Positions 5 through 61,353 of a DNA stretch of 64,000 nt are shown piece after piece. Each line of letters opens with the position of its first letter. The first letter of the stretch is position 1. The stretch is from contig NC_089501.1 in the NCBI RefSeq assembly GCF_036850765.1, positions 16,096,997-16,160,996 on the forward strand. The letters are read 5' to 3'. The notes under the pieces were generated by a model, which worked only from the letters and a program-made list of their open reading frames with translations, was not told where the DNA came from and did no database searches. Made by a program: the position numbers and the translations under genes. Source of the DNA: Saccopteryx bilineata (taxonomy: Eukaryota; Chordata; Mammalia; Chiroptera; Emballonuridae).

Positions 5-1087
5 ATGCCATTAAGGAAGAGAAAATCGAATATCATGGATACAAAAGAAAGAGAGGTAACACAGCTAGATGAGGAAAAATCTATGGAGAAAAAATTTAAT
101 ATATTGGAAACCTTGGAGCTAAATGACAGAGAATTCAAGATAGAAATCCTAAAAATCCTCCGAGATATACAAGAAAACACAGAAAGGCAATTTAGGGAGC
201 TCAGAAAACAACTCAATGAACACAAAGAATATATGTCCAAAGAAATTGAAACTATAAAAACAAATCAAACAGAGATGAAAAACTCAATTCACGAGCTGAA
301 AAACGAAGTAACAAGCTTAGTTAATAGAACAGGTCAGATAGAAGAGAGGATTAATGAAATAGAAGATAAGTAACTTCAGGCACAACAGAGAGAAGAAGAA
401 AGAGACTCAAAAATTAAAAAAAATGAGATAGCCCTACAAGAATTATCTGACTCCATCAAAAAGAATAACATAAGAATAATAGGTATATCAGAGGGAGAAG
501 AGAGAGAAAATGGAATGGAGAACATACTCAAACAAATAATAGATGAGAACTTCCCAAGCCTGTGGAAAGAACTAAAGCCTCAAATTCAAGAAGCAAACAG
601 AACACCGAGTTTTCTTAACCCCAACAAACCTACTCCAAGGCATATCATAATGAAATTGACACAAACCAACAGCAAAGAAAAAATTCTCAAGGCAGCCAGG
701 GAAAAGAAGAATACAACATATAAAGGAAGGCCCATTAGATTATCATCAGATTTCTCAGCAGAAACTCTACAAGCTAGAAGAGAGTGGACCCCAATATTTA
801 AAGTCCTGAAAGAGAGAAACTTTCAGCCACGAATACTATACCCATCAAAGCTATCCTTCAAATATGAAGGAGAAATAAAAACATTCACAGATACAGAAAA
901 GATGAGGGAATTTATCATCAGAAAACCCCCACTCCAGGAATTACTAAAGGGGGTTCTCCAATCAGATACAAAGAACAAAAAAAAAAACAGAGCCACAAGT
1001 AAAAGCTCCAAGAAGAACACAATAAAACCAAATTTAAACTGTGACAACAACAAAAAGAAAGAGGGGGAGAAGATGGAGATTAAGTAG
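5..1087 (+). pseudogene. L1 ORF1p, RNA-binding chaperone, interrupted by a TAA
   Basis: L1 ORF1p is a trimeric nucleic-acid chaperone that coats L1 RNA in the cytoplasmic particle. The first part (to 373) is charged and heptad-like, as expected for the coiled coil. After a TAA at 371-373 the same frame stays open to a TAG at 1085-1087. It then reads through an RRM-like segment beginning near NNIRIIGISEG and the basic C-terminal domain with ILKAAREKK and LQARREW. The spacer before ORF2 is 239 bp, typical of mammalian L1. The stop looks like a simple point mutation because the frame is intact on both sides. The true start lies at or before the window edge. Confidence 0.93.
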
Positions 1088-1326
1088 CAAAGGACGATGG
1101 AGTGCAAAAGTACTCACAAAATAGTTTGCTACAATGAACAGGGTAGGGACCCTTTTCATTACTCAAAGGTAACCACCATTGAAAAAACCACCACAGAAGC
1201 ACATGAGATAAAAAAGATAGCAACAGAGGAAAGATGTATGGAATACAACCAAATAAAAACAAAAGATAGAAAAACGAAAGAGAAGGATCAAACAAGACAC
1301 AAAACTAACAAAAAGCAAGATATAAA

Positions 1327-4300
1327 ATGGCAATAGGGAACTCACAAGTATCAATAATTACACTAAATGTAAACGGATTAAACTCACCAATAAAAAGGCA
1401 CAGAGTAGCAGAATGGATTAAAAAAGAAAATCCAACTATATGCTGCCTACAGGAAACTCATCTAAGTAACAAGGATAAAAACAAATTCAAAGTGAAAGGC
1501 TGGAAAACAATACTCCAAGCAAATAACATCCAAAAAAAAAGCAGGTGTAGCAATACTCATATCGGATAATGCTGACTACAAGACAGGAAAAGTACTCAGA
1601 GATAAAAATGGCCATTTCATAATGGCTAAGGGGACACTGAATCAAGAAGACATAACAATTCTTAATATATATGCACCAAACCAAGGAGCACCAAAATATA
1701 TAAGACAGCTACTTATTGACCTTAAAACAAAAACTGACAAAAATACAATCATACTTGGAGACCTCAATACACCGCTGACGGCTCTAGATCGGTCATCCAA
1801 ACAGAGAATCAACAAAGACATAGTGGCCTTAAACAAAACACTAGAGCGCCTGGATATGATAGACATCTACAGGACATTTCATCCCAAAGTGACTGAGTAT
1901 ACATTTTTCTCCAGTGTACATGGATCATTCTCAAGAATTGACCATATGTTGGGCCACAAAAACAACATCAGCAAATTCAGAAAAATTGAAGTTGTACCAA
2001 GCATATTTTCTGATCATAAAGCCTTGAAACTAGAATTCAACTGCAAAAAAGAGGAAAAAAATCCCACAAAAATGTGGAAACTAAACAACATACTTTTAAA
2101 AAATGAATGGGTCAAAGAAGAAATAAGTGCAGAGATCAAAAGATTTATACAGACTAATGAAAATGACAATACGACATATCAGAATCTATGGGATGCAGCA
2201 AAAGCAGTGATAAGAGGGAAGTTCATATCACTTCAGGCATATATGAACAAACAAGAGAGAGCCCAAGTGAACCACTTAACTTCCCACCTTAAGGAACTAG
2301 AAAAAGAAGAACAAAGACAACCCAAAAGCAGCCAAAGAAAGGAGATAATAAAAATCAGAGCAGAAATAAATGAATTAGAGAACAGAAAAAGTATAGAAAA
2401 AATTAATAGAACAAGGAGCTGGTTCTTTGAAAAGATCAACAAAATTGACAAACCCTTGGCAAGACTTACCAAGGAAAAAAGAGAAAGAACTCATATAAAC
2501 AAAATCCAAAATGAAAGAGGAGAAATCACCACGGACACCGTAGATATACAAAGAATTATTGTAGAATACTATGAAAAACTTTATGCCACTAAATTCAACA
2601 ACCTAGAAGAAATGGATAAATTCCTAGAACAATACAACCTTCCTAGACTGAGTCAAGAAGAAGCAGAAAGCCTAAACAGACCTATCAGTAGAGAAGAAAT
2701 AGAAAAAACCATTAAAAACCTCCCCAAAAATAAAAGTCCAGGCCCTGACGGCTATACCAGCGAATTTTATCAAACATTCAAAGAAGACTTGGTTCCTATT
2801 CTACTCAAAGTCTTCCAAAAAATTGAAGAAGAAGCAATACTTCCAAACACATTTTATGAGGCCAACATAACCCTCATACCAAAACCAGGCAAGGATGGCA
2901 CAAAAAAAGAAAACTACAGACCAATATCTCTAATGAATACAGATTCTAAAATACTAAACAAAATACTAGCAAATCGAATACAACAACATATTAAAAAAAT
3001 AATACATCATGATCAAGTGGGATTCATCCCAGAATCTCAAGGATGGTTCAACATACGTAAAACGGTTAATGTAATACACCATATCAACAAAACAAAGAAC
3101 AAAAACCACATGATCTTATCAATAGATGCAGAAAAGGCTTTCGATAAAATACAACACAATTTTATGTTTAAGACTCTCAACAAAATGGGTATAGAAGGAA
3201 AATATCTCAACATGATAAAGGCCATATATGATAAACCATCAGCTAACATCATATTAAATGGCACTAAACTGAAGGCTTTCCCCCTTAAATCAGGAACAAG
3301 ACAGGGTTGTCCACTCTCTCCACTCTTATTTAATGTGGTACTAGAGGTTCTCGCCACAGCAATCAGACAAGACAAAGAAATAAAAGGCATCCATTTCGGA
3401 AAAGAAGAAGTAAAGGTATCACTTTTTGCAGATGATATGATCCTATACATCGAAAACCCCAAAGAATCCACAAAAAGACTACTAGAAACAATAAGCCAAT
3501 ACAGTAAGGTCGCAGGATACAAAATTAACATTCAGAAGTCAATAGCCTTTCTATATGCCAACTATGAAACAACTAGGAACTCAAAAGAATAATCCCCTTC
3601 ACGATTGCAACAAAAAAAATAAAATACTTAGGAATAAACATAACAAAGAATGTAAAGGACTTATATAATGAAAACTATAAACCATTGTTAAGGGAAATCG
3701 AAAAAGATATAATGAGATGGAAGAATATACCTTGTTCTTGGCTAGGAAGAATAAATATAATCAAGATGGCTATATTACCCAAAGCAATATACAAATTCAA
3801 TGCAATTCCCATCAAACTTCCAATGACGTTTTTTAAAGAAATAGAGCAAAAAATCATCAGATTTATATGGAACTATAAAAAACCCCGAATAGCCAAAGCA
3901 ATCCTAAAGAAAAAGAATGAAGCTGGGGGCATTACAATACCTGACTTCAAACTCTATTATAGGGCCACGACAATCAAAACAGCATGGTATTGGCAGAAAA
4001 ATAGACACTCAGACCAATGGAACAGAATAGAAAGTCCAGAAATAAAACCACATATATATAGTCAAATAATTTTTGATAAAGGGGCCAACAACACACAATG
4101 GAGAAAAGAAAGCCTCTTCAATAAATGGTGCTGGGAAAACTGGAAAGCCACATGCAAAAGAATGAAACTGGACTACAGTCTCTCCCCCTGTACTAAAATT
4201 AACTCAAAATGGATCAAAGATCTAAACATAAGACCTGAAACAATTAAGTACATAGAAGAAGACATAGGTACTCAACTCATGGACCTGGGTTTTAAAGAGC

Positions 4301-5148
4301 ATTTTATGAATTTGACTCCAATGGCAAGAGAAGTGAAGGCAAAAATTAATGAATGGGACTACATCAGACTAAGAAGTTTTTGCTCAGCAAGAGAAACTGA
4401 TAACAAAATAAACAGAAAGCCAACTAAATGGGAAATGATATTTTCAAACAACAGCTCAGATAAGGGCCTAATATCCAAAATATACAAAGAACTCATAAAA
4501 CTCAACAACAAACAAACAAACAATCCCATAAAAAAATGGGAAGAGGATATGAACAGACACTTCTCCCAGGAAGAGATACAAATGGCCAACAGATATATGA
4601 AAAGATGCTCATCTTCTTTAGCTATTAGAGAAATGCAAATCAAAACAGCAATGAGATACCACCTCACACCTGTTCGATTAGCTATTATTAGCAAGACAGG
4701 TAATAGCAAATGTTGGAGAGGCTGTGGAGAAAAAGGAACCCTCATACACTGTTGGTGGGAATGTAAAGTAGTACAACCATTATGGAAGAAAGTATGGTGG
4801 TTCCTCAAAAAACTGAAAATAGAACTACCTTATGACCCAGCAATCCCTCTACTGGGTATATATCCCCAAAACTCAGAAACATTGATACGTAAAGACACAT
4901 GCAGCCCCATGTTTATTGCAGCATTGTTCACAGTGGCCAGGACATGGAAACAACCAAAAAGCCCGTCAATAGATGACTGGATAAAGAAGATGTGGCACAT
5001 ATACACTATGGAATACTACTCAGCCATAAGAAATGATGACATCGGAACATTTACAGCAAAATGGGATCTAGATAACATGATACGAAGCGAAATAAGTAAA
5101 TCAGAAAAAACCAGGAACTGCATTATTCCATACGTAGGTGGGACATAA
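1327..5148 (+). pseudogene. L1 ORF2p, endonuclease and reverse transcriptase, two frameshifts
   Basis: ORF2p nicks target DNA and reverse transcribes RNA in place; it also mobilises SINEs. The ATG at 1327 opens an APE-type endonuclease domain: LNVNGL, QETH (catalytic Glu), GDLNTP and FSDHKAL. The reverse transcriptase domain follows, with the active-site FADD at 3425-3436. A Cys-rich segment (C-x3-C-x7-H-x4-C) lies at about 4711-4764. Frame breaks: an A9 tract at 1532-1540 is one base too long, and one A is missing near 3585-3589, giving the TAA at 3590-3592. The frame resumes to 5148. Total length corresponds to about 1,274 codons, the normal size. Catalytic residues are retained, so inactivation is recent and due to frameshifts only. 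Confidence 0.96.
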
Positions 5149-5584: not shown

Positions 5585-5946
5585 TTTTTTTATTGTTCTG
5601 AAGTGAGAAGTGGGGAGGCAGAGAGACAGACTGCCCATGCACCAGACTGGGATCCACCCGGCAAGCCCACTGGTGGGTGATGCTCTATCAGGGGTGCAGC
5701 TCTGCTGCAACATGAGCCATTCTAGTGCCTGAGGCAGAGGCCATGGAACCATCTTCAGCACCTGGGCCAACCCTGCTCCAATGGAGCCTTGGCTGCAGGA
5801 GGGGAAGAGAGAGATAGAGAGAACAGAGAGGGGAAAGGGTGGATAAGCAGATGGGTGCTTCTCCTTTATGTCCTGGCTGGGAATCGAACCCAGGACATCC
5901 ACATGCAGGTTTGATGCTCTACCACTGAGCCAATCGTCCAGGGCCA
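5585..5946 (-). mobile_element. tRNA-derived SINE (Rhin-1/VES-like), older copy
   Basis: Reading the minus strand, a tRNA-like head with a B box (complement of GGGAATCGAACCC at about 5879-5891) is followed by the pyrimidine-rich body and the GC-rich tail shared with 60931-61353. The A-rich tail appears as the T run at 5582-5591. Divergence from the 60931 copy is clearly higher than for the copy at 6303. No clean target duplication is seen. Confidence 0.9.
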
Positions 5947-6302
5947 TTATTTTTTAACTTCAGGATTATGACCTTAATTGTTGCAATTAAAATCAAGTGG
6001 GGAAAATTTCTTTAAAAATTAAATGTCAATATTTACATTGTGAGAAAAATCCCATCTTTGGTAATAATTTAAGCTTAGAATATAAAAATTTAGAAGTCAT
6101 TTTATTCAGAATTATTTGAGATGATAAAGGCTAATAAGTATGAAGACTGGGTTAAAAGTTAACCTTTGATATCCCTTCTAATTTTTAAATTCTGTGATTC
6201 AAAGTATCCTAACTTAAAAATGTATAAAGAAACTCTTATTTACTAGTTGGGAATATATATCTTTTGTTTTATTCTTTAACCTTATATTTCCATTATATTT
6301 TT

Positions 6303-26734: not shown

Positions 26735-27252
26735 TGTTGGGCAGATAAATTAATTTATGCTCACTCAGTTAAAGATGGCTGCTGCTCTCATGTGGTGATG
26801 CTCTCATGTGATACAGCTAATTGCCCTTCTTGCTTGGGAGGGGCTTGGTATGCTAATGTGTGCTGGAGGAGGGGGTTGTCCCGCTGAAAAGTTTTAAAAG
26901 GAGGAGCTAAGAGGCCATTTTGAGGAGAGTGACACATTCTTATATAGAGGAAGAGCCCATGGTGTAGCAGGGCAGGGAGGCCATGTGGAGGAGGCAGCCA
27001 AAATGGCGGAATGGTGAGGTGAAAGCCTTTGAATCTAGGAAAACTCGGATGAGTCAGTAGTTTTGGGATCCCTGAATGGAAAGGGAGGTGTTTCCCGCTG
27101 TGTGTTTACTTGCTTGCCAAGTGCAAGTCTAGAATAAAGGAAAATGGACCACCAGTTTTTGGCTCCACAGTTTCTTTACCGTCTGTCTGAATTAAATGCA
27201 AACCTACACAGGCCAGGTGGCTTTGATGGTGGCCACGGCTACTGGCTTTACA
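26735..27252 (+). mobile_element. solo LTR, divergent member of the 31-kb ERV family
   Basis: Starts TGTTGGGCAGATAAAT and ends GGCTTTACA, like the other copies. It is flanked by GTGAT on both sides (26730-26734 and 27253-27257). The U3 is largely different from the others, but the CAAAATGGCGGAATG, GAAAACTCGGATGAGTCAGT and GACCACCAGTTTTTGGCTCC blocks are shared. No internal sequence adjoins, so it is a recombination product left by a provirus. Confidence 0.93.
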
Positions 27253-28594
27253 GTGATTTCTTAAAAGAAACTAGCCTCCATCTCAAAGGGCTCCATGTTT
27301 ATGAACTGGGTAAAAGGCTATGATTTCCCACTGTAGTACTTTGATTCAGGTATTGCCTAGCAGAGGAAGAATTTGTCTGATAATAAAGGATAAGTAATAT
27401 CTTAGAGACCTAACAATCTATTTCACTCCTAAAATTCTCACCAAAATTATAAGCCACAACCATTTATCCACAAGGATCAAAACACTTGGGTTGCCCTCTG
27501 CCTTTGTGGTTTATCACAATAATTTTGTCAACTTCATCCTGAAACTGAGCCCTGCACCTGGTTTCTACCACTCTAAGACCTCATTATTCTTCTTGAGATT
27601 AAGGAACCAGGCTTCTAGCAAACTATTGGAGCCTATCCCAGGTGTTTCAGCTGACACAGTAGATGTAGAATCTTAGGTAAGCCTTCCCATATTGATAAAT
27701 TCATCTTGAACCAACCTCATAGCTTTATCACCTTGATTTAGCCCCTTTAGAATCCATTTCTAAACATGTTCTCCCATTTTCTGGCTATAATAACTGGCAA
27801 TGTTCTGCCACTTCTTTGGTGTAGAATCTATTTTATCTTTGAGATTATTTTTCAATTCTGTTTCTGGCCAAGGAAGCAATGAATGATGGTGGAGATTAAC
27901 CTTGAGGATAATGGGAATGTCCTTGCTATGCAAGTGCTCTAGATGAAGTCATTGAAAGTAGTTTTCTCAGACAGGCTGGAGAGACTGCTTCAACTAGCAA
28001 AGAAAATTCATAGAGCTTGGAGAGTTCAAGCTAAGGATCTCATTTCAAGTCTCAGGGTTCCACTTTTTTAAGCACTGCCTTAATATTACAGACCTCTCAG
28101 ATTCCAATGAAAAAAGTATGGGACCCTGAGGTTTGAGATGGACTGCTAATCTTAATTTTAACTTGAACTCTCAAAGCCCACTGAATGTATATATTTAATC
28201 AGTATTGCAACTCTACAACGCATACCATCAGGTGTTGGTTCTAATCATTAATCATGTCTGTCCTACATATACACAAGATAAGAGATGCACTTATATCTGA
28301 TTAGAACCTGTTTGGATCTCTATCATGTCTTGAGCTGAAAGTTCAAGTTGCTAAGCTTGTATTTTTATTTTTGTGAGCTAACCAGTGGCGTGAGAAGAAG
28401 CCTCTCATCTTTATCACCATAATAATTAAGTGACATAGCTACTTAATCTCTTCTAAACTTGCCTTCCCCTGGTTACCCTCCCACGTCTCCAGCCTGAGCA
28501 GGAAATCATCTGTATGTTATAATGTGTGTGAAATTAATACTAGAATTCCAACCTGAAGGCCTATTTTTGAGACGATTCCTGAACCAATTACTGT

Positions 28595-28860
28595 GCCAGT
28601 CAGGGGTCCAGCAAGAGACAGAAAGCACATTGATGGAATTCTGAGAAGAATTTAATGAAAGTGCTCATTAGAGATATGTATCATTGGGTAAGATAACAAA
28701 CAAGAGAAGCTGAGGTACCTCAGACTAGCAACATGGGATGGTGTTACCATCCCTAGTCCTAGGGGGTAGAAACAGCTCACCAAAGCCCTATGAGAGCCAA
28801 AACCCTGGAGGAAGACTTGCCTGGCCAGAGCTGCAGTCAGAGGGAGTTGCAGCTACTGTT
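28595..28860. other. possible ancient LTR-like repeat
   Basis: The segment from TCAGGGGTCCAGCAAGAGAC resembles old LTR-type repeats that I cannot name. It might be the far end of the ERV-L provirus or unrelated. Confidence 0.3.
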
Positions 28861-28962
28861 AGAATCCTTGATTGAAGCAGGCATGACCAAGCCAAGAATA
28901 ATCCTGACATCTTTCTCCTTTTATTCTTTTTAATTTCCTACTGGATTTTCCACTAGCCCAGG

Positions 28963-29611
28963 TGTAAAGCCAGTAGCCATGGCCACCATCACAGCTGCCT
29001 GGCCAGTGCAGGTTCAAGTTTGATTCAGACAGACGGTAATGAAACAATGGAGCCAAGAAATGGTGGGCCATTAGCTTTAATTCTAGCTCGCACCTGACGG
29101 GCAAGAAATACACACAGTGGGAAAACACTTCTCTTTCCATTCAAGGCTCCCAAAGCCACTGACTTATCTGAGTTTTCTAGAATCAAAGTTTCTACCTCAT
29201 CAGCCTCTGTTCCCCATCTCCTCTCTGCACAAACTCTGCACATACTGACTTCTCCTTCAGCACTCCACCATCTTAGCTGCTTCTCCTCTACTCCACGTGA
29301 CCTTTCTCTGCTCTCCTCCAGCATGGGCTCATCTGCCCCATTTTATAGTGTAGAAATCAAAACCTTTAATCCAATATACAAACAAGAAAGTCTCTGATAC
29401 AAAGCCACTAATCTGAGGCATAAATGGGATTCCTCATAAGAGTGTACCACCCCCTATCATGCAACAGTCAAGGGTGTGGGGAAAAGCTTAGGTTTAAAAC
29501 TAAGCCTTAGGCTATAAGGACCCTGCCTTCTTGCAGCCTGTCCCCCACATCCAATGCAAACTATAAGCGAGCAAACATATATATCATATTTACAAACTTA
29601 TTTGACCAACA
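28963..29611 (-). mobile_element. solo LTR of the 31-kb ERV family
   Basis: Begins TGTAAAGCCAGTAGCC and ends TTTGACCAACA on the plus strand (complement of the LTR start). CCAGG is present on both sides (28958-28962 and 29612-29616). It is a diverged copy: the U3 part around 29440-29600 differs from the younger LTRs. Confidence 0.92.
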
Positions 29612-29616
29612 CCAGG

Positions 29617-31044
29617 CAATGTATGGATATTTTGCAAAAGTCAGCCTTTCCAGCATATGCAGAACATGGCTGAGAGTGGATCTAGGTTTGAGGATTATAG
29701 AGAATGGCAAATGGAGAACAATTAGCATGGTGGGGGTAGCAGGGGGAGATGGTGCTTGTGGTGATGGTAGGAGATTTCTATGTAATAGTTGTGAACTCAA
29801 GGACAGTCTCCTACTGTATTCATAAATACTACTTACTCTCTTTTAGTGTTTCTCCAGGTAGAGGACATATATTTTCAGACTCATTATGTCACCCTAACAC
29901 TTCTGCTCCATTCTGCATCCACCCAGTATATCAGAAATATATTCTTGTGAAAATCCAAGATCCCCAGGCAAATCAGGAAATATGACAGCAACTGTTGCAA
30001 TGTCCTTAAGAATTCTCAAGACAGTTAAGGTGATTATATGTGGTGGTAGAATCTGAAAGCTTCCAAAGAGATTGTTGCTTAGTGTTTCTGAGTCTGAGCC
30101 AAGGTAACTCATTACAGTAGTGAAGTCAGAGTAAATTAAGGGGAGCATTACTTGGAAGCAAAATTGAATTGTAATGTGATGTGGCATCAGAAAAGCTAAA
30201 TGTTTCTTGGAGAACTGTGTGAAGAATAATCAGAGTCCTGAGTATTTCTTCCCACACAATTCAGTTACAATGCTTCTGACAGCACAACTGATTTTAAATG
30301 TCTGAGTTTCAATAAGTTTCAGACATTTGGTGGAAGAAATACTGCTCAAAAGGAAGGAAATATGCAATTAAATAAAAGTTAAAAAGCCTTACTAGTCAAA
30401 AATATCTACCCGTCACCCCCAAAAAACAACAACAAAGTGAAATAGATTAATTGGCTTTTAACTCTGTTGTACCTGGAATATGAATTTTTATCTTAACAAT
30501 CATAAAGAGTATAATGTGTTAAGAACACATCTTAAATGACTGTGGGGAACACATCTAGGGCATGAAAAAAATGACTACAAATAAGCACTCCTTTATCAGT
30601 ACCAATCTTTTCTTGAGGAAAAAACATTAGTGATACACTGACAAGTGGAGGCGCTGCTGATTGTCATGTCAAGAATGACTTGTTTATTCATAGCTGTGCA
30701 TCCCTTAACTGTGTGAAGGTGAAAATTCAAACTTGGGATAGATGTGCAAATGAAGAAAAGGAATCTTTACTCTCCTTCCATTCCCATAAGTAGAACAGAT
30801 TTAGCTGTGTTTTGCTAGAGGCAAGTTTGCTGAACTTGAATAACCTTTACATTGATTGCTGTAGACATTCAGGTAAAATTGCAAAGCTTTTTCTGTAGTG
30901 TTGCAGTTTTACACAGTTGTAGGTTTTTGGTCATCGTGTCAGTCCGCATTGCTTGCCTCAGACTATATCTCTATTTGAGTAACTCCTTTAAATAGAAAGT
31001 GGCCTTCACTCGAGTTACTGGATTTCTCACTGCTATCTTTTAGG
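29617..31044. other. unassigned sequence
   Basis: No gene or repeat recognised. The frame at 29894-30187 (minus, 97 codons) has no family features. Confidence 0.4.
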
Positions 31045-31099
31045 GGTGGCATGCAAACTTTGAAGCCAGTTAACCAGGGTTCAAATCTTGCTTCCTGTG
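31045..31099 (+). repeat. MIR SINE, left part, split by the provirus
   Basis: The GAAGCCAGTTAACCAGGG and TTCAAATCTTGCTTCC blocks are the MIR 5' core. The rest of the MIR resumes at 34778. Confidence 0.85.
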
Positions 31100-31620
31100 T
31101 GTTGGGCAGATAAAATGTATTATGCTCACTTTGTTAAAAATGGCGTTGCCCACGTGAGGCCGTCGCCCAGGTGATATTAATATGTGTTGAGAATCCTTGT
31201 AGGCTGGGGCTTGGTTTTGGGATTAAGCCTTTCCCACCCTTTTTGATGTGGGGTGGTACAATCCAATCATGACTCAGAGAAGTGACTTTGTATTAGAGAC
31301 TTCCCTGTTTGTATATTGGATTAAGGGATTTTGGTTTTCTACACTATAAAGTGAGACAGACCAGGAGCTTGCTCACTCAGTTCCTGCTATCACGATTGCA
31401 GGGGCTTCCCTGATCCTTTGCCCTTCATGGGAAAAGCTGGTTTTCTGCTTTTCCCTTGTCTTCTTTTGTGGTTTGCCTGTCTTGGTGAGACACCAATAAA
31501 TAGGATGGCCCACCATCCTCCGACTCCGCCGTTTCTTTACCGACTGTCCGAATCCAATGTGAACCTGCATGGGGCAGGCAGCTGTGATGGTGGCCCTGGC
31601 CATGGCTTCTGGCTTTTACA
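31100..31620 (+). mobile_element. 5' LTR of the short ERV
   Basis: Starts TGTTGGGCAG and ends GGCTTTTACA. A TATA box lies at 31345-31350 and an AATAAA at 31495-31500, just before GGATGGCCCACC. U3 matches the 3' LTR at 34079 closely (about ten differences in the first 210 bp by eye), including absence of the extra G-rich block found in other copies. The segment from about 31388 to 31525 is not homologous to the matching part of the 3' LTR, so this LTR is shorter (521 against 694 bp). Confidence 0.92.
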
Positions 31621-31622
31621 TT

Positions 31623-31650
31623 TGGCGTAGTCTGTGGCAGGATTCGATCC
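31623..31650 (+). promoter_or_regulatory. probable primer binding site, tRNA-Ser-like
   Basis: Two bases after the LTR end the sequence reads TGGCGTAGTC, then TGT, then GGCAGGATTCG. The complement of the 3' end of mammalian tRNA-Ser (CCA added) is TGGCGTAGTCGGCAGGATTCG from memory. The match is complete apart from the 3-base insertion. Position and sequence both fit a retroviral minus-strand primer site. Confidence 0.75.
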
Positions 31651-31708
31651 AGATGGGCAAGGAGCCTTTGAGGGTGGAGTAGAGGACTGGCTAGTGTTAG
31701 GGTTCCCC

Positions 31709-32356
31709 ATGACTGTCCTTTTGGGGATTGTAGGCTGGCTGACTTTTACAGCCATGCGTGAGGTAACTGAGAGCTCTGTGGAAGAGGCCGCCCGGGACCT
31801 GCAAACCGAGCAGCGGAAGGAGCTGGAGCAAACGTGGGAGAAACAGATGCTGACCCTGGAGCTGGAGGAAATGCTGGAGGAGGAGGCCGACCAGGTGTTC
31901 GAGATTCACCTGGAAATGGAGCAGCTACTGGAGGAGGAATCACAGGTTCGTGAGTTGCAGATTGCCCTGGATGTTGTGGAGAGCCAGCAGCGGCAGGAGA
32001 CTGGGGCTGAGGCTGAGGCTGAGGCTGAGGCCTGGGCTGGGGCCGGGCCTGGGGCTGCAAGCCCGGCAGTGGGAGCTGGTGTTTTCGGTTCCTCTTTGGA
32101 GGATGAGGAGAATCCGGCTGGAGTTGCAATCCGCAGTCACCAGAAGGTGAAAGCCCAGCTGGAAGGAGCACCTACTATGGCCCTGGTAGGTCTGCGATTT
32201 TGGGACTGTTGGGCAGATAAAATGTATTATGCTCACTTTGTTAAAGAGGCCATTGCCCAGGTGATATTAATGTGTGTTGGGGGTGGGCTAAAGGCAGGGA
32301 GAATCCTTGTAGCCTGGGGCTTGGTTTTGGGATTAAGCCTTTCCTACCCTTTTTGA
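31709..32356 (+). CDS. unrecognised Glu-rich coiled-coil frame in the short ERV
   Basis: The frame is open from just after the primer site. The first ATG is at 31709 and another in frame is at 31754. From 31709 it gives 215 residues, but the last 50 come from the nested solo LTR that starts at 32207. The element's own part is 166 codons. It opens with a short hydrophobic stretch (TVLLGIVGWLTF), followed by about 80 residues rich in Glu, Leu and Gln with heptad spacing, then an Ala/Glu repeat and an Ala/Gly-rich segment. If the nested LTR is disregarded, the frame continues in phase at 32905 to a TGA at 33019-33021, in a short stretch holding a CxxC pair (CKTC). The DNA is much more GC-rich than its surroundings. 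I recognise no retroviral or host family; a diverged gag part or a captured coding fragment are possibilities. No expression evidence. Confidence 0.5.
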   Translation: MTVLLGIVGWLTFTAMREVTESSVEEAARDLQTEQRKELEQTWEKQMLTLELEEMLEEEADQVFEIHLEMEQLLEEESQVRELQIALDVVESQQRQETGAEAEAEAEAWAGAGPGAASPAVGAGVFGSSLEDEENPAGVAIRSHQKVKAQLEGAPTMALVGLRFWDCWADKMYYAHFVKEAIAQVILMCVGGGLKAGRILVAWGLVLGLSLSYPF

Positions 32357-32899
32357 TGTAGGGCGGTACAATCCAATCATGCCTCAGAGAAGTGACTTTG
32401 TATTAGAGACTTCCCTGTTTTGTATATTGGATTAAGAGTTTGGATTGCTACACTATAAAATGGGGACGAAGTGGGAGCTTGGGCTCTTGGTTCCTGAGAT
32501 TAGAAGAGAGAGCAGAGGAGAGCAGAGAAAGGCCACGTGGAGGAGGCCAGGAGAAGCAGCCAAGATGGCGGAGTGCTGAGTGAGATGCCAGTTTGTGTAG
32601 AGTTTGTATCTGGGATAAGGAAGAAGATGGGGAACAGAGGTGAATAAGTCTGGTGAGCTAGAAACCTTTGATTCTAGGAAACTCGGATAAGTCAGTAGCT
32701 TTGTGAGCACTGAATGTGACTGGGTTTTGGAGCCCAGTGTGTATTTTTACTTGCCCGCCGGGTGCAAAGCTAGAATTAAAGACTATGGCCCACCAGTTTT
32801 TGGCTCCGCTGTTTCTTTGCCGACTGTCCGAATCCAATGCAAACCTGCATGGGCCGGGCTGCTGTGATAGTGGCCCTGGCCCTGCCTGCTGGCTTTACA
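32207..32899 (+). mobile_element. solo LTR nested in the short ERV
   Basis: Starts TGTTGGGCAG and ends GGCTTTACA. GGGAC is on both sides (32202-32206 and 32900-32904). It carries a TATA box (CTATAAAA at about 32453-32460) and an ATTAAA signal at 32775-32780. It includes a G-rich block near 32277-32305 that both LTRs of the host provirus lack, so it belongs to another subfamily and inserted later. Confidence 0.95.
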
Positions 32900-32904
32900 G
32901 GGAC

Positions 32905-33174
32905 ACAGGGCTGGACTTGCTCTCCAGAGCAGAGATGGAAATGCTGACTGCCATTGCCATGTGCCCCTCTTTGGGACAGTGTAAGACCTGCGAGGACGGC
33001 AGGGATGAGGGGGGTGGCTGACGCCCCATGTGCGTGGACTGATTTCCTGGACTACGACCGGAGTGGGCATTGGCTCCTTTGTTGGATGGACTTACGGACT
33101 ATGGATTTTGGACAATGTGAAATACCCTGATGGGGGTGGGGGGTGGCTTTGCTGGAAGCACACCCCTGCCCCGG
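32905..33174 (+). other. internal ERV sequence, second piece
   Basis: Lies between the two nested solo LTRs. It continues the upstream open frame to a TGA at 33019-33021, then has no notable frame. The end (33130-33174) is G-rich followed by C-rich. No pol or env motif is seen. Confidence 0.8.
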
Positions 33175-33872
33175 TGTAAAGCCAGAAGCCGGGGCTACCA
33201 TCACAGCAGCCCGGTCCATGCAGGTTCGCATTGGATTCGGACAGTCGGTAAAGAAACAGCGGAGCCAAAAACTGATGGGCCATAGTCTTTAATTCTAGCT
33301 TGCACCCGGCAGGCAAGTAAAAATACACACTGGGCTCCAAAACCCACTCACATTCAGTGCTCACAAAGCTACTGACTTATCCGAGTTTCCTAGAATCAAA
33401 GGTTTCTAGCTCACCAGCCTTATTCTCCTCAGTTCCCTATCTCCTTCCTTATCCCAGATACAAACACTACACAAACTGGCATCTCACTCAGCACTCCGTC
33501 ATCTTAGCTGCTTCTCCTGGCCTCCTCCACGTGGCCTCCTTCTGCTCTCTGCTCTGCTCTCTCCTCTAATGATAATCTCAGGAACCAAGAGAGCAAACTC
33601 TCGTTCTGCCCCCATTTTATAGTGTAGGTTCAAACCCTTTAATCCAATATACAAAATAGGAAAGTCTCTAATACAAAGTCACTTCTCTGAGTCATGATTG
33701 GATTGTACCACCCCACATCAAAAAGGGTGGGAAAGGCTTAATCCCAAAACCAAGCCCCAGGCTTCAACGATCCTGCCTGCCCCCCAACACACATTAATAT
33801 CACCTGGGCAACGGCCTCCACGTGGGCATTATCTTTTACAAAGTGAGCATAATATATTTTATCTGCCCAACA
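33175..33872 (-). mobile_element. solo LTR nested in the short ERV, opposite strand
   Basis: The plus strand begins TGTAAAGCC and ends CTGCCCAACA. CCCGG is on both sides (33170-33174 and 33873-33877). It is inverted relative to the LTRs on each side. Confidence 0.95.
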
Positions 33873-33877
33873 CCCGG

Positions 33878-34078
33878 GAAGCTTTTCCCGTGGCTAGAAA
33901 GAAGGCCGAGGACATTTTGTGCTTTGGGCTAAATGCTGAGAGACTGGTGAAGTGTACCTTTGTAATTGTTGAAACTGTATGATTTGTGCTGTTGTAATTT
34001 GTGTAATGTGCCTAATATCCTTGCCCAGGGATGCTGGTGATGTAGATTGTAGGTAGTAAAGTGAGCATAGGGGTGAAT
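33878..34078 (+). other. internal ERV sequence, third piece, up to the 3' LTR
   Basis: About 200 bp directly before the 3' LTR. The final bases (AGCATAGGGGTGAAT) hold a short purine run that may be a weak polypurine tract. No coding motif recognised. Confidence 0.75.
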
Positions 34079-34772
34079 TGTTGGGCAGATAAAATGTATT
34101 ATGCTCACTTTGTTAAAAATGACGCTGCCCACGTGAGGCCGTCACCCAGGTGATATTAATGTGTGTTGAGAATCCTTGTAGCCTGGGGCTTGGTTTTGGG
34201 ATTAAGCGTTTCCCACCCTTTTTGATGTGGGGTGGTACAATCCCATCATGCCTCAGAGAAGTGACTTTGTATTGGAGACTTCCCTATTTTGTATATTGGA
34301 TTAGAGGTTGTGAAGCTACAATATATAATGGGGGCAGAACGAGAGTTTGCTCTCTTGGTTCCTGGGATGATTAGCATGAGAGAGCAGAGGGAGCAGAGCA
34401 GAAAGCAGAAAGAGGCCATGTGGCCAGGAGAAGCAGCCAAGATGGCAGAGTATTGAGTGAGAGGCCAGTTTGTGCAGTTTAACGCTGGAGAAGGAAGGAG
34501 ATGGGGAACTGAGGAGAATAAGGCTGGTGAGCTAGGAATCTTTGATTCTAGGAAACTCGGATAAGTCAGTGATTTTGTGAGCACTGAATGTGAGTGGGTT
34601 TTGGAGCCCGGTGTATGTTTTTACTTGCCCGCCGGGTGCAAGCTAGGATTAAAGACTATGGCCCACCAGTTTGTGGCTCTGTTGTTTCTTTACCGACTGA
34701 CCGAATCCAATGTGAACCTGCATGGGCCAGGCGGCTGTGATGGTGGCCCTGGCCATGGCTTCTGGCTTTACA
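34079..34772 (+). mobile_element. 3' LTR of the short ERV
   Basis: Starts TGTTGGGCAG, ends GGCTTTACA, and is followed by the CTGTG duplication. It has a TATA-like AATATATAATG at about 34319-34329 and an ATTAAA near 34649-34654. Its U3 pairs with the 5' LTR, but its middle part is that of the solo LTRs, not of the 5' LTR. A leader/U5 frame beginning at 34577 is described under findings. Confidence 0.94.
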
Positions 34773-34777
34773 CTGTG

Positions 34778-34945
34778 CTTACTAAATATGTGACATTGGG
34801 CACATTTTTAGCTTCGCAAGGAGCCTTGGTTTTCTTTTCTGTAATATGGGATTATTAATACTTGTAGTAATGTTTTGAAGATTAAGGGAGATAATGTATA
34901 TAAAGCTGCTAACATGGCTGGCGTATAGTGATGATTCAATAAATA
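34778..34945 (+). repeat. MIR SINE, right part
   Basis: The GACATTGGGCAC, TAATATGGGATTATTAATAC and GATTAAGGGAGATAATGTAT blocks and the ATTCAATAAATAAA end complete the MIR begun at 31045. Confidence 0.87.
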
Positions 34946-50003: not shown

Positions 50004-50407
50004 TTTTTTTTTTTTTTTTTTTTTCATTTTTTTTTTCTGAAGCTGGAAACAGGGAGAGACAGTCAGACTCCCGCATGCGCCCGACCGGGATCCACCCGGC
50101 ACGCCCACCAGGGGGCGACGCTCTGCCCACCAGGGGGCGATGCTCTGCCCATCCTGGGCGTCGCCATGTTGCGACCAGAGCCACTCTAGCGCCTGGGGCA
50201 GAGGCCACAGAGCCATCCCCAGCGCCCGGGCCATCTTTGCTCCAATGGAGCCTTGGCTGCGGGAGGGGAAGAGAGAGACAGAGAGGAAAGCGTGGCGGAG
50301 GGGTGGAGAAGCAAATGGGCGCTTCTCCTGTGTGCCCTGGCCGGGAATCGAACCCGGGTCCTCCTCACGCTAGGCCGACGCTCTACCGCTGAGCCAACCG
50401 GCCAGGG
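50004..50407 (-). mobile_element. Rhin-1-like SINE inserted beside a VES SINE
   Basis: Near-consensus copy with a long T run at 50001-50024. The flanking duplicate CAGTGATAGCCCTAATTTT is at 49985-50003 and 50408-50426. It reused the right-hand duplication of the VES copy. Confidence 0.96.
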
Positions 50408-53618: not shown

Positions 53619-53975
53619 TTTTTTTTTTTTTTTTTTGTATTTTTCTAAAGCTGGAAACAGGGAGAGACAGTCAGACAGACTCCCACATGTGCCCGACTGG
53701 GATCCACCCGGCATGCCCACCAGGGGGCGATGCTCTGCCCCTCCGGGGCGTTGCTCTGTTGCGACCAGAGCCACTCTAGCGCCTGGGGCAGAGGCCAAGG
53801 AGCCATCCCCAGTGCCTGGGCCATCTTTACTCCAATGGAGCCTTAGAGAGACAGAGAGGAAGGGGGGGGTGGAGAAGCAAATGGGCGCTTCTCCTATGTG
53901 CCCTGGCCGGGAATCGAACCCGGGTCCCCCGCATGCCAGGCCGACGCTCTATTGCTGAGCCAACCGGCCAGGGCC
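53619..53975 (-). mobile_element. Rhin-1-like SINE
   Basis: Near-consensus minus-strand copy with an internal deletion in the purine-rich part near 53846. TAGAGTTTCTT flanks it (53608-53618, 53976-53986). Confidence 0.95.
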
Positions 53976-54264: not shown

Positions 54265-54410
54265 TTTTTTTTTTCCACTGTGTGACCCACTTCATTGCCT
54301 GCAGCCTATGGGCAGAGGCCAGGCAATGGTTCAGGGCCATAGTTTGCTCTGGCATGGGGCACTATGAGAGACCCAGGGGACAGGCCTGTCATAAATCCAA
54401 ACCTATGCAT
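54265..54410 (-). mobile_element. unidentified retroposed RNA copy
   Basis: A T run (A tail of a minus-strand insert) followed by about 135 bp of sequence not found elsewhere in the window. GGAATTGTTCTTTT occurs at 54251-54264 and 54411-54424. This is the signature of L1-driven insertion of a polyadenylated RNA. The source is not recognised; a 5'-truncated processed pseudogene is most likely. Confidence 0.83.
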
Positions 54411-55477: not shown

Positions 55478-56119
55478 TGTTGGGCAGATAAAATATATTA
55501 TGCTCACTTCGTTAAAGATGGTGCTGCGCACATGGAAGCTGTCACCCAGGTGATATTAATGTGTGTTGGGGGTGGGCTGTGGGCAGGCAGGATCCTTGTA
55601 GCCCGGGGCTTGGTTTTAGGACTAAGCCTTTCCCACCCTTTTTGATGTGGGGTGGTGCAATCCTATCATGCCCCAGATAAGTGACTGTATTAGAGACTTC
55701 CCTATTTTGTATATTGGATTAAAGGTTTTGATTTCTACACTATAAAGTGGGGGAAGAATGGGAGCTTGCTCTTGGTTCCTGAAATTATCATTAGAAGAGA
55801 GAGCAGAGAGGATAGCAGAAAAGGCCACGTGGAGGAGGCTAGGAAGCAGCCAAGATGGTGGAGTGTTGAGTGAGAAGCCAGTTTGTGCAGAGTTTGTGCA
55901 GGGAGAAAGAAGGAGATGGGGAACAGAGGTGAATAATTCTGGTGAGCTAGAAACCTTTGATTCTAGGAAACTTGGATAAGTCAGTAGGGTGCAAGCTAGG
56001 ATTAAAGATGATGGCCCATCAGTTTTTGGCTCTGTTGTTTCTTTACCGACTGTCCGAATCCAATGAGAACCTGCATGGGCCGGGCGGCTGTGATAGTGGC
56101 CCTGGCTACTGGGTTTACA
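55478..56119 (+). mobile_element. solo LTR of the 31-kb ERV family
   Basis: TGTTGGGCAG to GGGTTTACA with ACCAC on both sides (55473-55477, 56120-56124). A segment after AAGTCAGTAGG at about 55987 is deleted relative to 34079. Confidence 0.95.
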
Positions 56120-56153
56120 ACCACATGCCAAGAAAGTCATTGGTTAGGGGTGG

Positions 56154-56834
56154 TGTAAAGCTAGAAGGCATGGCCAGAGCCACCATCAGAGCAGCCCAGC
56201 CCATGCAGGTTTGCATTGGATTCGGATAGTCGGTAAAGAAACAATGGAGCCACAAACTGGTGGGCCATAGTCTTTAATTCTAGCTTGCACTCAGCGGGCA
56301 AGTAAAAATACACACTGGGTTCCAAAACCCAATCACATTCAGTGCTCACAAAGCTACTGACTTATCCGAGTTTCCTAGAATCAAAGGTTTCTAGCTCACC
56401 AGACTTATTCACCTCTGTTCCCCATCTCCTTCCTTAACCCAAATACAAACTCTACACAAACTGGCATCTCACTCAGCACTCCACCATCTTGGCTGCTTCT
56501 CCTGGCTCCTCTACGTGGCCTTTCTCTGCTCTCCTCTGCTCTCTCTTCTAATGATAATCTCAGGAACCAAGAGCCCAAGCCCCCGTTCTACCCCTATTTT
56601 ATAGTGTAGATTCAAAACCCTTAATCCAATATACAAAACAGGGAAGTCTCTAATACAAAGTCACTTCTCTGAGGCATGATTGGATTGTACCACCCTACAT
56701 CAAAAAGGGTAGAAAAGGCTTAATCCCAAAACCAAGCCCCAGGCTACAAGGATTCTCAACACACATTAATATCACCTGGGCGACGGCCTCCATCTCTAAC
56801 AAAGTGAGCATAATACATTTTTATCTGCCCAACA
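56154..56834 (-). mobile_element. solo LTR of the 31-kb ERV family, inverted to its neighbour
   Basis: The plus strand runs TGTAAAGCTAG to CTGCCCAACA. The flanks GGTGG (56149-56153) and GGTCG (56835-56839) are a 5-bp duplication with one change. It lies only 34 bp from the LTR at 55478-56119. Confidence 0.93.
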
Positions 56835-56839
56835 GGTCG

Positions 56840-57614
56840 CAAGTGTTTTTCTAGGCAAAAGGAACTCTGTCTGTCACCAGCCAAAAGGTTAAACTGTTTT
56901 ACCTTCTATTCTTCAACAGTAAATAAGTATAAAAGCTAAAGGAGCTGAGGCATAAAAACCACAAACTCAAATACCTAGAGAAGTGTGATAAAAAACATAC
57001 TTCTGTGAATGTGACCAGTATAAGACAAAGGGTAATTAAAGTGGCCACCAACTGAAAGTACCTGCTCTATCTAGAGGCATGCAAATGAATGCAAATAAAG
57101 TGAAATGAGTTATGCTAGCCAATTGACTTGTAGCATCTCCACACAGAAGCTGCAAATCTATGACCCTAGGCTATCATTTAAGGAGGGAAGAGAGTATCTG
57201 ACCACACTAAGCCAAGCACTGACTGTAATGTACTTCATGTATTTTACACAATTGAATTCTCAAAAAAACATCATGATATAAATATTACTGTTTCCCCTTT
57301 AACCAACAAGGATATGGAGGTGTAGAAAGGTTAAGCAATTTGCTAAAGTTAGAGGTATTTCCTAGAATGTACATGTGTATGTGTGTGTGTGTGCAGGGAT
57401 ACACAGTTTTTTCCCATAGTCCTTTCTATATAATCAGTTTGAGAAACTGCAAATCATTTGAAAGTAATCCACTATTCAGGGTGGCCCCGTGCCCCTAGGG
57501 GCAAACAATAGGCATGAGTACTGGAGATTCTTGGGGCATTTTGCCCACTCCACGTGTGGGAGAGGAGGTGTGGGAGAGGAGATGGGGGTGGATGTAAACA
57601 ACTGGAAGGCTCCC
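56840..57614. other. spacer with a MIR fragment
   Basis: AAGCCAAGCACTGACTGTAA, GATATGGAGGTGTAGAAAGG and TTAAGCAATTTGCTAAAGTT at 57205-57355 form a reversed MIR. The rest is unassigned. Confidence 0.6.
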
Positions 57615-58284
57615 TGTAAAGCCAGTAGCCACGGCCACCAGCACAGCAGCCGCCTGGCCCATGCAGATTCGCATAGGATTCCGACAGTCGGTAAAGAAAC
57701 AACGGAGCCACAAACTGGTGGGCCATAGTCTTTAATCCTAGCTTGCACCCAGCGGGCAAGTAAAAATACACACTGGGCTCCAAAATCCACTCACATTCAG
57801 TGCTCACAAAGCTACTGACTTATCCGAGTTTCCTCACCAGACTTATTCACCTCTGTTCCCCATCTCCTTCCTTCTACCTGCACAAACTGCACAAACTGGC
57901 CTTTCACTCAATACTACGCCATCTTGGCTGCTTTTCCTGGCCACATGGCCTCTTTCTGCTCTCCTCTCTGCTCTCTCCTCTAATCTCAGGAACCAAGAGC
58001 ACAAGCTCTCATTCTTCCCCCATTTTATATTGTAGAAATCCAAACCTTTAATCCAATATACAAAACAGGGAGGTCTCTAATACAAAGTCACTTCTCTGAG
58101 GCATGATTGGATTGTACCGCCCTACATCAAAAAGGGATGGGAAAGGCTTAATCCCAAAACCAAGCCCCAGGCTACAACAATCCTGCCTGCCCCTAACACA
58201 CATTAATATCACCTGGGCAATGGCCTCTATGTGGGCAGCGTCATCTTTAACAAAGTGAGCATAATATATTTTATCTGCCCAACA
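57615..58284 (-). mobile_element. solo LTR of the 31-kb ERV family
   Basis: TGTAAAGCCAGTAGCC to CTGCCCAACA on the plus strand, with CTCCC on both sides (57610-57614, 58285-58289). Confidence 0.95.
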
Positions 58285-60930: not shown

Positions 60931-61353
60931 GCCCTGGCCGGTTGGCTCAGCGGTAGAGCGTCGGCCTAGCGTGCGGAAAACCCGGGTTCGATTCCCGGCC
61001 AGGGCACATAGGAGAAGCGCCCATTTGCTTCTCCACCCCTCCGCCGCGCCTTCCTCTCTGTCTCTCTCTTCCCCTCCCGCAGCCAGGGCTCCATTGGAGC
61101 AAAGATGGCCCGGGCGCTGGGGATGGCTCTGTGGCCTCTGCCCCAGACGCTAGAGTGGCTCTGGTCGCAACATGGCGACACCCAGGAGGGTCGCAACATG
61201 GCGACGCCCAGGATGGGCAGAGCATCGCCCCCTGGTGGACAGAGCGTCGCCCCTGGTGGGCGTGCCGGGTGGATCCTGGTCGGGCGCATGCGGGAGTCTG
61301 TCTGACTGTCTCTCCCTGTTTCTAGCTTCAGAAAAATGCAAAAAAAAAAAAAA
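60931..61353 (+). mobile_element. Rhin-1-like SINE, best-preserved copy
   Basis: The tRNA-like head has an A box (TGGCTCAGCGG) and a B box (GGTTCGATTCC) of the RNA polymerase III promoter type, a GC-rich body and an A18 tail. AAAAACATTTTTG flanks it (60918-60930, 61354-61366). An internal stretch around 61162-61218 containing TCGCAACATGGCGAC is duplicated in tandem. Confidence 0.96.

Follow-up and report, generated by a model that had tools for sequence, protein, structure and literature searches.

A compact, non-autonomous endogenous retrovirus of the bat Saccopteryx bilineata, its young full-length relative and one-sided mosaic LTRs

Introduction

How does a retroviral element without pol come to exist in many copies, and why would the two ends of a single provirus disagree in one region? 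Both questions are raised by a 64,000-nucleotide stretch of the Saccopteryx bilineata genome (contig NC_089501.1, positions 16,096,997 to 16,160,996; henceforth the window), which carries between positions 31100 and 34772 a compact endogenous retrovirus (ERV) bounded by long terminal repeats (LTRs). Considering this provirus together with its relatives in the same genome, we think it probable that it represents a multi-copy, non-autonomous ERV with class III-like kin, moved by the enzymes of a young full-length relative (henceforth the partner), and that plus-strand switching produced its mosaic LTRs. The new part is the recurrence of a partner-type R region in the 5' LTR only, the 3' LTR having its own R. 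An earlier note, made from the letters alone, had remarked neither on this R mismatch nor on five further solo LTRs of the wider family in the window.

Results

A provirus in a MIR, struck twice by its own family

Between 31100 and 34772 we found four LTRs of the family, three forward and one on the minus strand (33175-33872), and the order of insertion that the earlier note had read from target duplications was borne out. Specifically, CTGTG stands on both sides of the provirus (31095-31099 and 34773-34777), while GGGAC (32202-32206 and 32900-32904) and CCCGG (33170-33174 and 33873-33877) bracket two nested own-family solo LTRs in opposite orientations. When the host flanks were fused at one CTGTG, a MIR consensus aligned without a gap at the junction and scored 138, where the best of 200 shuffles reached 33; the right flank alone scored 120 and the left alone 30, the left arm thus being the weaker part. 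Removal of the nested solo LTRs leaves an interior of 586 + 270 + 201 = 1,057 bp, in line with the roughly 1.06 kb given previously. The features are as follows.

31057..31099, + strand: left part of the MIR, ending in the CTGTG duplication (31095-31099)
31100..31620, + strand: 5' LTR, 521 bp, mosaic: compact-family U3 and distal U5, partner-family R
31389..31496, + strand: foreign R core (short R); partner-like sequence extends from roughly 31320 to 31540, by eye
31623..31650, + strand: primer binding site
31631..32206, + strand: first part of the open frame, first Met at 31709, matching the partner's first frame
32207..32899, + strand: nested solo LTR, same orientation, GGGAC flanks
32905..33021, + strand: end of the open frame, with its stop
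33022..33174, + strand: stretch weakly matching partner late pol (positions 145-201 of internal piece 2), ending in CCCGG
33175..33872, - strand: nested solo LTR, opposite orientation, CCCGG flanks
33878..34078, + strand: last internal piece, reaching the 3' LTR
34079..34772, + strand: 3' LTR of 694 bp, carrying the long R native to the family
34773..34944, + strand: second copy of CTGTG, then the right part of the MIR

The primer binding site fits the 3' end of tRNA-Ser if two to three inserted bases are allowed for. Within the frame, the first part encodes a hydrophobic stretch, a coiled-coil-like stretch and an acidic repeat. Against Pfam, the frame of the first piece gave three weak matches far below the cut-offs (E 0.06-0.49), and the remaining frames in the scanned subset gave zero.

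The short interior is a family trait

Searching the S. bilineata assembly (2.61 Gb, 256 contigs) yielded 2,618 first-look candidates for the first internal piece, 40 of which were scored, and 7,112 for the compact LTR (first-look candidates are not copy counts). We examined 29 further copies (L012-L040; about 3.6 kb each), picked by their match to the window's first internal piece. The distance from the start of the interior to the 3' LTR was 1,057-1,093 bp in 28 of them, the exception (L035) having no 3' LTR in that orientation within its stretch. The short interior is thus a family trait in this sample, many copies being without pol, and the compact non-autonomous family that the earlier note had supposed is upheld, its pol-bearing relative (see below) forming a separate family.

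Exact 5-bp target duplications were present in 15 of 22 testable compact copies. Among 17 non-mosaic copies, Kimura two-parameter distances between paired LTRs ranged from 0.001 to 0.142 (median 0.040), although some pairs may not be true pairs, since exact duplications are missing from 7 of the 17. With an assumed substitution rate of 2.2e-9 per site and year these distances correspond to roughly 0.2 to 32 million years, and the smallest of them indicate recent movement. Tandem compact proviruses with a common middle LTR were also seen (L017; C4:229021688-229023768).

A young pol-bearing relative in the same genome

The R segment of the window's 5' LTR that is foreign to the family (short R) had 1,408 first-look candidates in the genome, and all 40 that were scored were 99-100% identical to it. 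Partner loci were chosen by match to this segment. Six same-strand pairs of short R were examined: four lay 5.5 kb apart, one 6.9 kb and one 2.2 kb. Four loci (L071-L074) proved to be longer relatives with pol of the kind that the earlier note had proposed searching for, with LTRs of about 525 bp that are 98.9-99.4% identical within pairs and an interior of about 5.0 kb; a fifth, L075, is older (93.7%). This young pol-bearing relative is a separate family. A further locus, L076, has a partner LTR pair of 97.9% identity around a 1.6-kb interior comprising the late-pol end of the partner only, with CCCAC duplications by eye.

Pfam searches of L071 and L072 recovered retroviral protease (20.1 bits in L071, against a cut-off of 20.7), RVT_1 (split over two frames in L072), RNase H and integrase core (rve). 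The partner's integrase matched best the integrase entries of prototype foamy virus (PFV) at 97 bits, the first entry taken as non-PFV reaching 57 bits, whereas its reverse transcriptase was about equally near entries taken for foamy virus (144 bits) and for murine leukaemia virus (MLV; 143.5 bits). Only about 130 bases separate the last pol frame of L071 from its 3' LTR, which leaves no room for env. For the partner's first long frame Pfam returned no family, so that it is gag by position only.

The compact interior resembles a partner with pol removed

The compact interior aligns in order to positions 1698-2493 of L071 (the leader and first long frame) and then to 5906-5963, with 58-87% identity in pieces over the partner loci. 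Some 3.4 kb of the partner, comprising the rest of the first frame and pro-pol, is without counterpart in the compact form. Given a leader and first-frame match followed by a piece of late pol, the compact element reads as a pol-deletion derivative. The late-pol piece is 58 bp long, is 72-74% identical in L071, L072 and L074, gives E 0.007 in protein comparison and is the only trace of pol in the compact interior.

A frame of at least 190 codons, stop to stop, is open in all 29 further copies. It is complete at 216-248 codons, with the same end, in 25 of them, and the other four carry one common CGA-to-TGA stop. Although the earlier note had called this frame unknown, it matches the first frame of the partner: in single comparisons, the window frame is 33% identical to it over 93 aa (E 2e-5) and the database protein P0001 50% over 52 aa (E 2e-8); the match includes the C-terminal end of the frame's protein, which P0001 contains. 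Six database proteins matched the frame's first part. A profile built from 7 sequences, scoring only the 7,996 candidates with most words in common, found 9, and S. bilineata and S. leptura are the only sources of all these proteins. Of the nine, P0001, P0004 and P0008 stop exactly at the frame's stop, and P0007 continues beyond it. The N-terminal residues of P0006 resemble, by reading, a frame in the 3' LTR, which suggests that transcripts may begin in the LTR. The S. leptura protein P0009, a TNFRSF10A-like gene model, opens with residues of the compact element's frame, which may reflect either an exon acquired from the element or a faulty model. No longer predicted protein containing the frame was found at E up to 1 among 6,213 candidates with a 700-residue padded query (a weak negative), and comparison with solved structures gave one match, at chance level.

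We also considered whether the frame is under amino-acid constraint. The ratio of non-synonymous to synonymous change (dN/dS) was 0.61 over 406 pairs, while neutral simulations with the same transition bias gave means of 0.64-0.68 and a range of 0.46-0.89; since these cover the observed value, constraint was not demonstrated. Among 181 singleton changes 8.5 stops would be expected, against the four copies with an identical CGA-to-TGA, a loose comparison in that those four are not singletons; and in 18 copies with indels that are not multiples of three, the indels sum to multiples of three. This pattern of stops and indels only hints at upkeep of the frame.

The foreign R recurs in 5' LTRs only

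In the window provirus, about 108 bp of R in the 5' LTR mismatch the 3' LTR at 55%, while the two LTRs agree at 214/224 positions of U3 (95.5%) and 68/70 of distal U5 (97.1%). The 5' LTR follows the partner over a stretch that opens about 25 bases ahead of the TATA-like box and runs to the U5 word TTTCTTTACC; over 226 bp it is 93.8-97.3% identical to six partner LTRs. The overall LTR divergence of 11% outside core R might be taken for great age; we rejected this, because the figure mixes in partner sequence and is misleading beside the clean U3 and U5 pieces.

Four further copies have the short R in the 5' LTR, two of them (L022 and L036) with the same layout. In L022 the two LTRs agree at 206/208 positions of U3 and 70/70 of distal U5, and in L036 at 206/206 (with one gap) and 70/70; the R regions of the 5' LTRs of the window, L022 and L036 are 92.9-97.3% like the six partner LTRs over 224-226 bp. 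In L034 and L037 the partner's U5 reaches the primer site. Breakpoints fall in stretches common to both LTR types, and the left breakpoints of the window, L022 and L036 are, by eye, unlike one another. All four testable mosaics (the window, L022, L036 and L037) have exact 5-bp duplications.

By reading the R type in 40 proviruses (that of the window, L012-L040 and a further ten covered by small stretches, with one LTR common to two tandem copies counted as both 5' and 3'), we obtained for the 5' LTRs 5 short, 33 long and 2 unclear, and for the 3' LTRs 0 short, 35 long and 5 unclear. None of 29 readable other compact-type LTRs had the short R (8 more were unreadable). A scripted census of the earlier loci, which accepts a copy only when the beginning of U3 is present next to the interior and hence omits L034 and L037, gave 3 short and 18 long for the 5' LTRs and, for the 3' LTRs, 27 long and 3 unreadable, plus one long-R LTR common to two copies. 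Finally, 40 matches were scored in a search with the junction of short R, U5 and interior, and 19, the window, L022 and L036 among them, extended to the query end. Among the seven best of the other 16, the place of the 3' R held a long R in six (one judged by a 39-bp tail), the seventh lying in the interior. In total, the 3' LTR has the long R in 11 of 11 readable mosaics; six of these were found through their 5' form and thus bear on the existence of symmetric mosaics, not on the 5'/3' ratio.

Other features of the window

The five further wider-family solo LTRs are found at 26.7, 29.0, 55.5, 56.2 and 57.6 kb.

26735..27252, + strand: older wider-family solo LTR between GTGAT duplications
28963..29612, - strand: older solo LTR with partner-type U3 and long R, CCTGG duplications by eye
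55478..56119, + strand: solo LTR, ACCAC duplications
56154..56834, - strand: solo LTR, flanks alike in 4 of 5 bases
57615..58284, - strand: solo LTR with GGGAG duplications, as read on its own strand

The 780 bp between the solo LTRs at 56.8-57.6 kb had no match to the internal pieces of the provirus. The eight wider-family insertions are clustered (26735-34772 and 55478-58284), 6 of 7 spacings being within 1,750 bp (simulated p 8e-5 against uniform placement, with thresholds chosen after the spacings were known). Elsewhere, 374-5148 holds what we take to be an L1-type element, whose long frames have 237, 698 and 523 codons. Rfam detected tRNA-like matches at 5874-5939, 50333-50403, 53899-53969 and 60936-61006, resembling a tRNA-derived bat short interspersed element (VES), and a well conserved SNORA42/SNORA80 copy at 54276-54408 on the - strand (139.7 bits).

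Discussion

Comparison with known systems

The earlier note had likened the element to the TRIM and LARD elements of plants (terminal-repeat retrotransposons in miniature and large retrotransposon derivatives), which are short non-autonomous LTR elements copied in trans. The non-autonomous part of that comparison stands. However, the compact element is from a vertebrate and keeps a long open frame in every copy examined, whereas TRIMs lack coding capacity. The mammalian ERVL-MaLR elements (THE1, MST and MLT), which make 5-bp duplications, are the closer analogy, because the compact frame matches its relative's first frame. An ERVL-MaLR interior is described as a single putative gag frame with pol and env absent (PMC10735291). 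The compact element beside its partner may thus be comparable to MaLRs beside ERVL, a likeness of structure; it differs in that the compact frame covers no more than the opening part of the partner's first frame, the partner is young and the foreign R is one-sided.

As regards kinship, the partner may be class III-like (ERVL, HERV-L and HERV-S): its integrase is closest to foamy virus, although its reverse transcriptase is about equally near MLV-type entries. This placement is set by integrase and reverse transcriptase matches to foamy virus and MLV entries. Two further likenesses concern the compact element: the 5-bp duplications, a class III feature, of the window provirus, both nested solos and most testable copies, and a tRNA-Ser type primer site, also shared with this group. 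Among canonical HERVL chains 2 of 87 are reported to use 'S', taken here as serine (PMC4724089). Exchange of LTR blocks by recombination has been described between HERVH/LTR7 subfamilies (PMC8912925), but there at the level of subfamily consensus sequences, whereas in the present case the disagreement is between the two ends of a single provirus. A survey of the literature by title returned nothing on the compact family.

How one-sided LTRs could arise

We infer that the compact element is copied in trans. What it retains is a pair of LTRs, a tRNA primer site and the beginning of the partner's first frame, and the young relative, with which it has the leader and LTR parts in common, would supply the enzymes. 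For the one-sided LTRs we favour template switching of the plus strand onto co-packaged partner cDNA. Both LTRs come from one minus-strand LTR, so a jump during minus-strand synthesis would put the foreign R on both sides. By contrast, a switch in plus-strand strong-stop DNA alters only the strand of the future left LTR, which fits the one-sided mosaics. Plus-strand strong-stop DNA would begin on compact minus-strand DNA, the nascent strand would switch to partner minus-strand DNA in R and U5, and the switched strand would become the left LTR, the right LTR staying compact. Such a switch requires that the particle also contain minus-strand DNA of the partner, and hence co-packaging.

The main rival, which we consider less likely, is gene conversion after integration, whereby one LTR was overwritten from one of many partner LTRs. 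The breakpoints in common stretches suit it, donors are plentiful given the 1,408 short-R candidates, and nine LTRs away from compact interiors join partner-type U3 to the long R (L043, L048, L049, L053, L059, L062, L066, L075 and the window LTR at 28963-29612). Conversion should nevertheless strike both LTRs as well as solo LTRs, yet the short R was absent from all 35 readable 3' LTRs and all 29 readable other compact-type LTRs (5' against the two pooled, p 0.006). It would also have had to be almost immediate in L036, which is mosaic though its U3 and distal U5 differ by one gap only. An assembly error that placed partner sequence in compact 5' LTRs is improbable: near-identical repeats do assemble poorly, but several loci are involved, the left breakpoints differ in the three fully read and the long R occupies the 3' side of every readable mosaic. 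Crossing-over between proviruses at different places, from which the 7 of 22 testable copies without exactly matching duplications would be expected, is very improbable for the mosaics, since their testable duplications are all exact and the MIR is continuous across the window site. Lastly, we give almost no credence to the case that the earlier note had set against its own reading, in which most copies are long and the window holds a normal full-length retrovirus shortened by a private deletion, ordinary as such deletions are for single damaged copies, because 28 of the 29 other copies, in a sample picked by first-internal-piece match, are equally short.

Several observations count against the account that we prefer, of a partner-derived element exchanging LTR sequence with its helper during plus-strand synthesis. 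As to descent, the late-pol piece is absent from the matches in L073 and L075, no match to the last 260 bp or so of the compact interior was detected in the partner loci, and the similarity to the partner interior is only 58-87% in pieces, so that the compact form may descend from a different or more ancient lineage; the putative gag identity of the partner's first frame follows from its position. As to the LTRs, L034 and L037 are damaged around and upstream of the 5' LTR, the seven mosaics from the junction search are known only from their 5' junction and 3' R place, and the short R in 5' (5/38) against 3' LTRs (0/35) gives a two-sided Fisher p of 0.055 (one-sided 0.033). The nine LTRs with partner-type U3 and long R imply either that there are other exchange routes too or that the long R is the older state. 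Mobilisation in trans would itself be visible only indirectly, by way of the mosaics.

What the mosaics may mean

In S. bilineata we thus have a recently active satellite and partner pair in a bat, both multi-copy, which makes the spread of pol-less mammalian LTR elements testable. If the exchange of R occurs during reverse transcription, the one-sided LTRs would be natural evidence for recombination in plus-strand synthesis, for which a strand displacement assimilation model has been proposed (PMC3187697). We tentatively suggest, as a possibility only, that they are a fossil record of plus-strand exchange between satellite and helper, in which a mismatch between 5' and 3' LTRs marks the use of a helper. 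If this is true, mosaic copies violate the assumption of identical LTRs at insertion on which LTR dating is built, and such dates would have to be read with caution.

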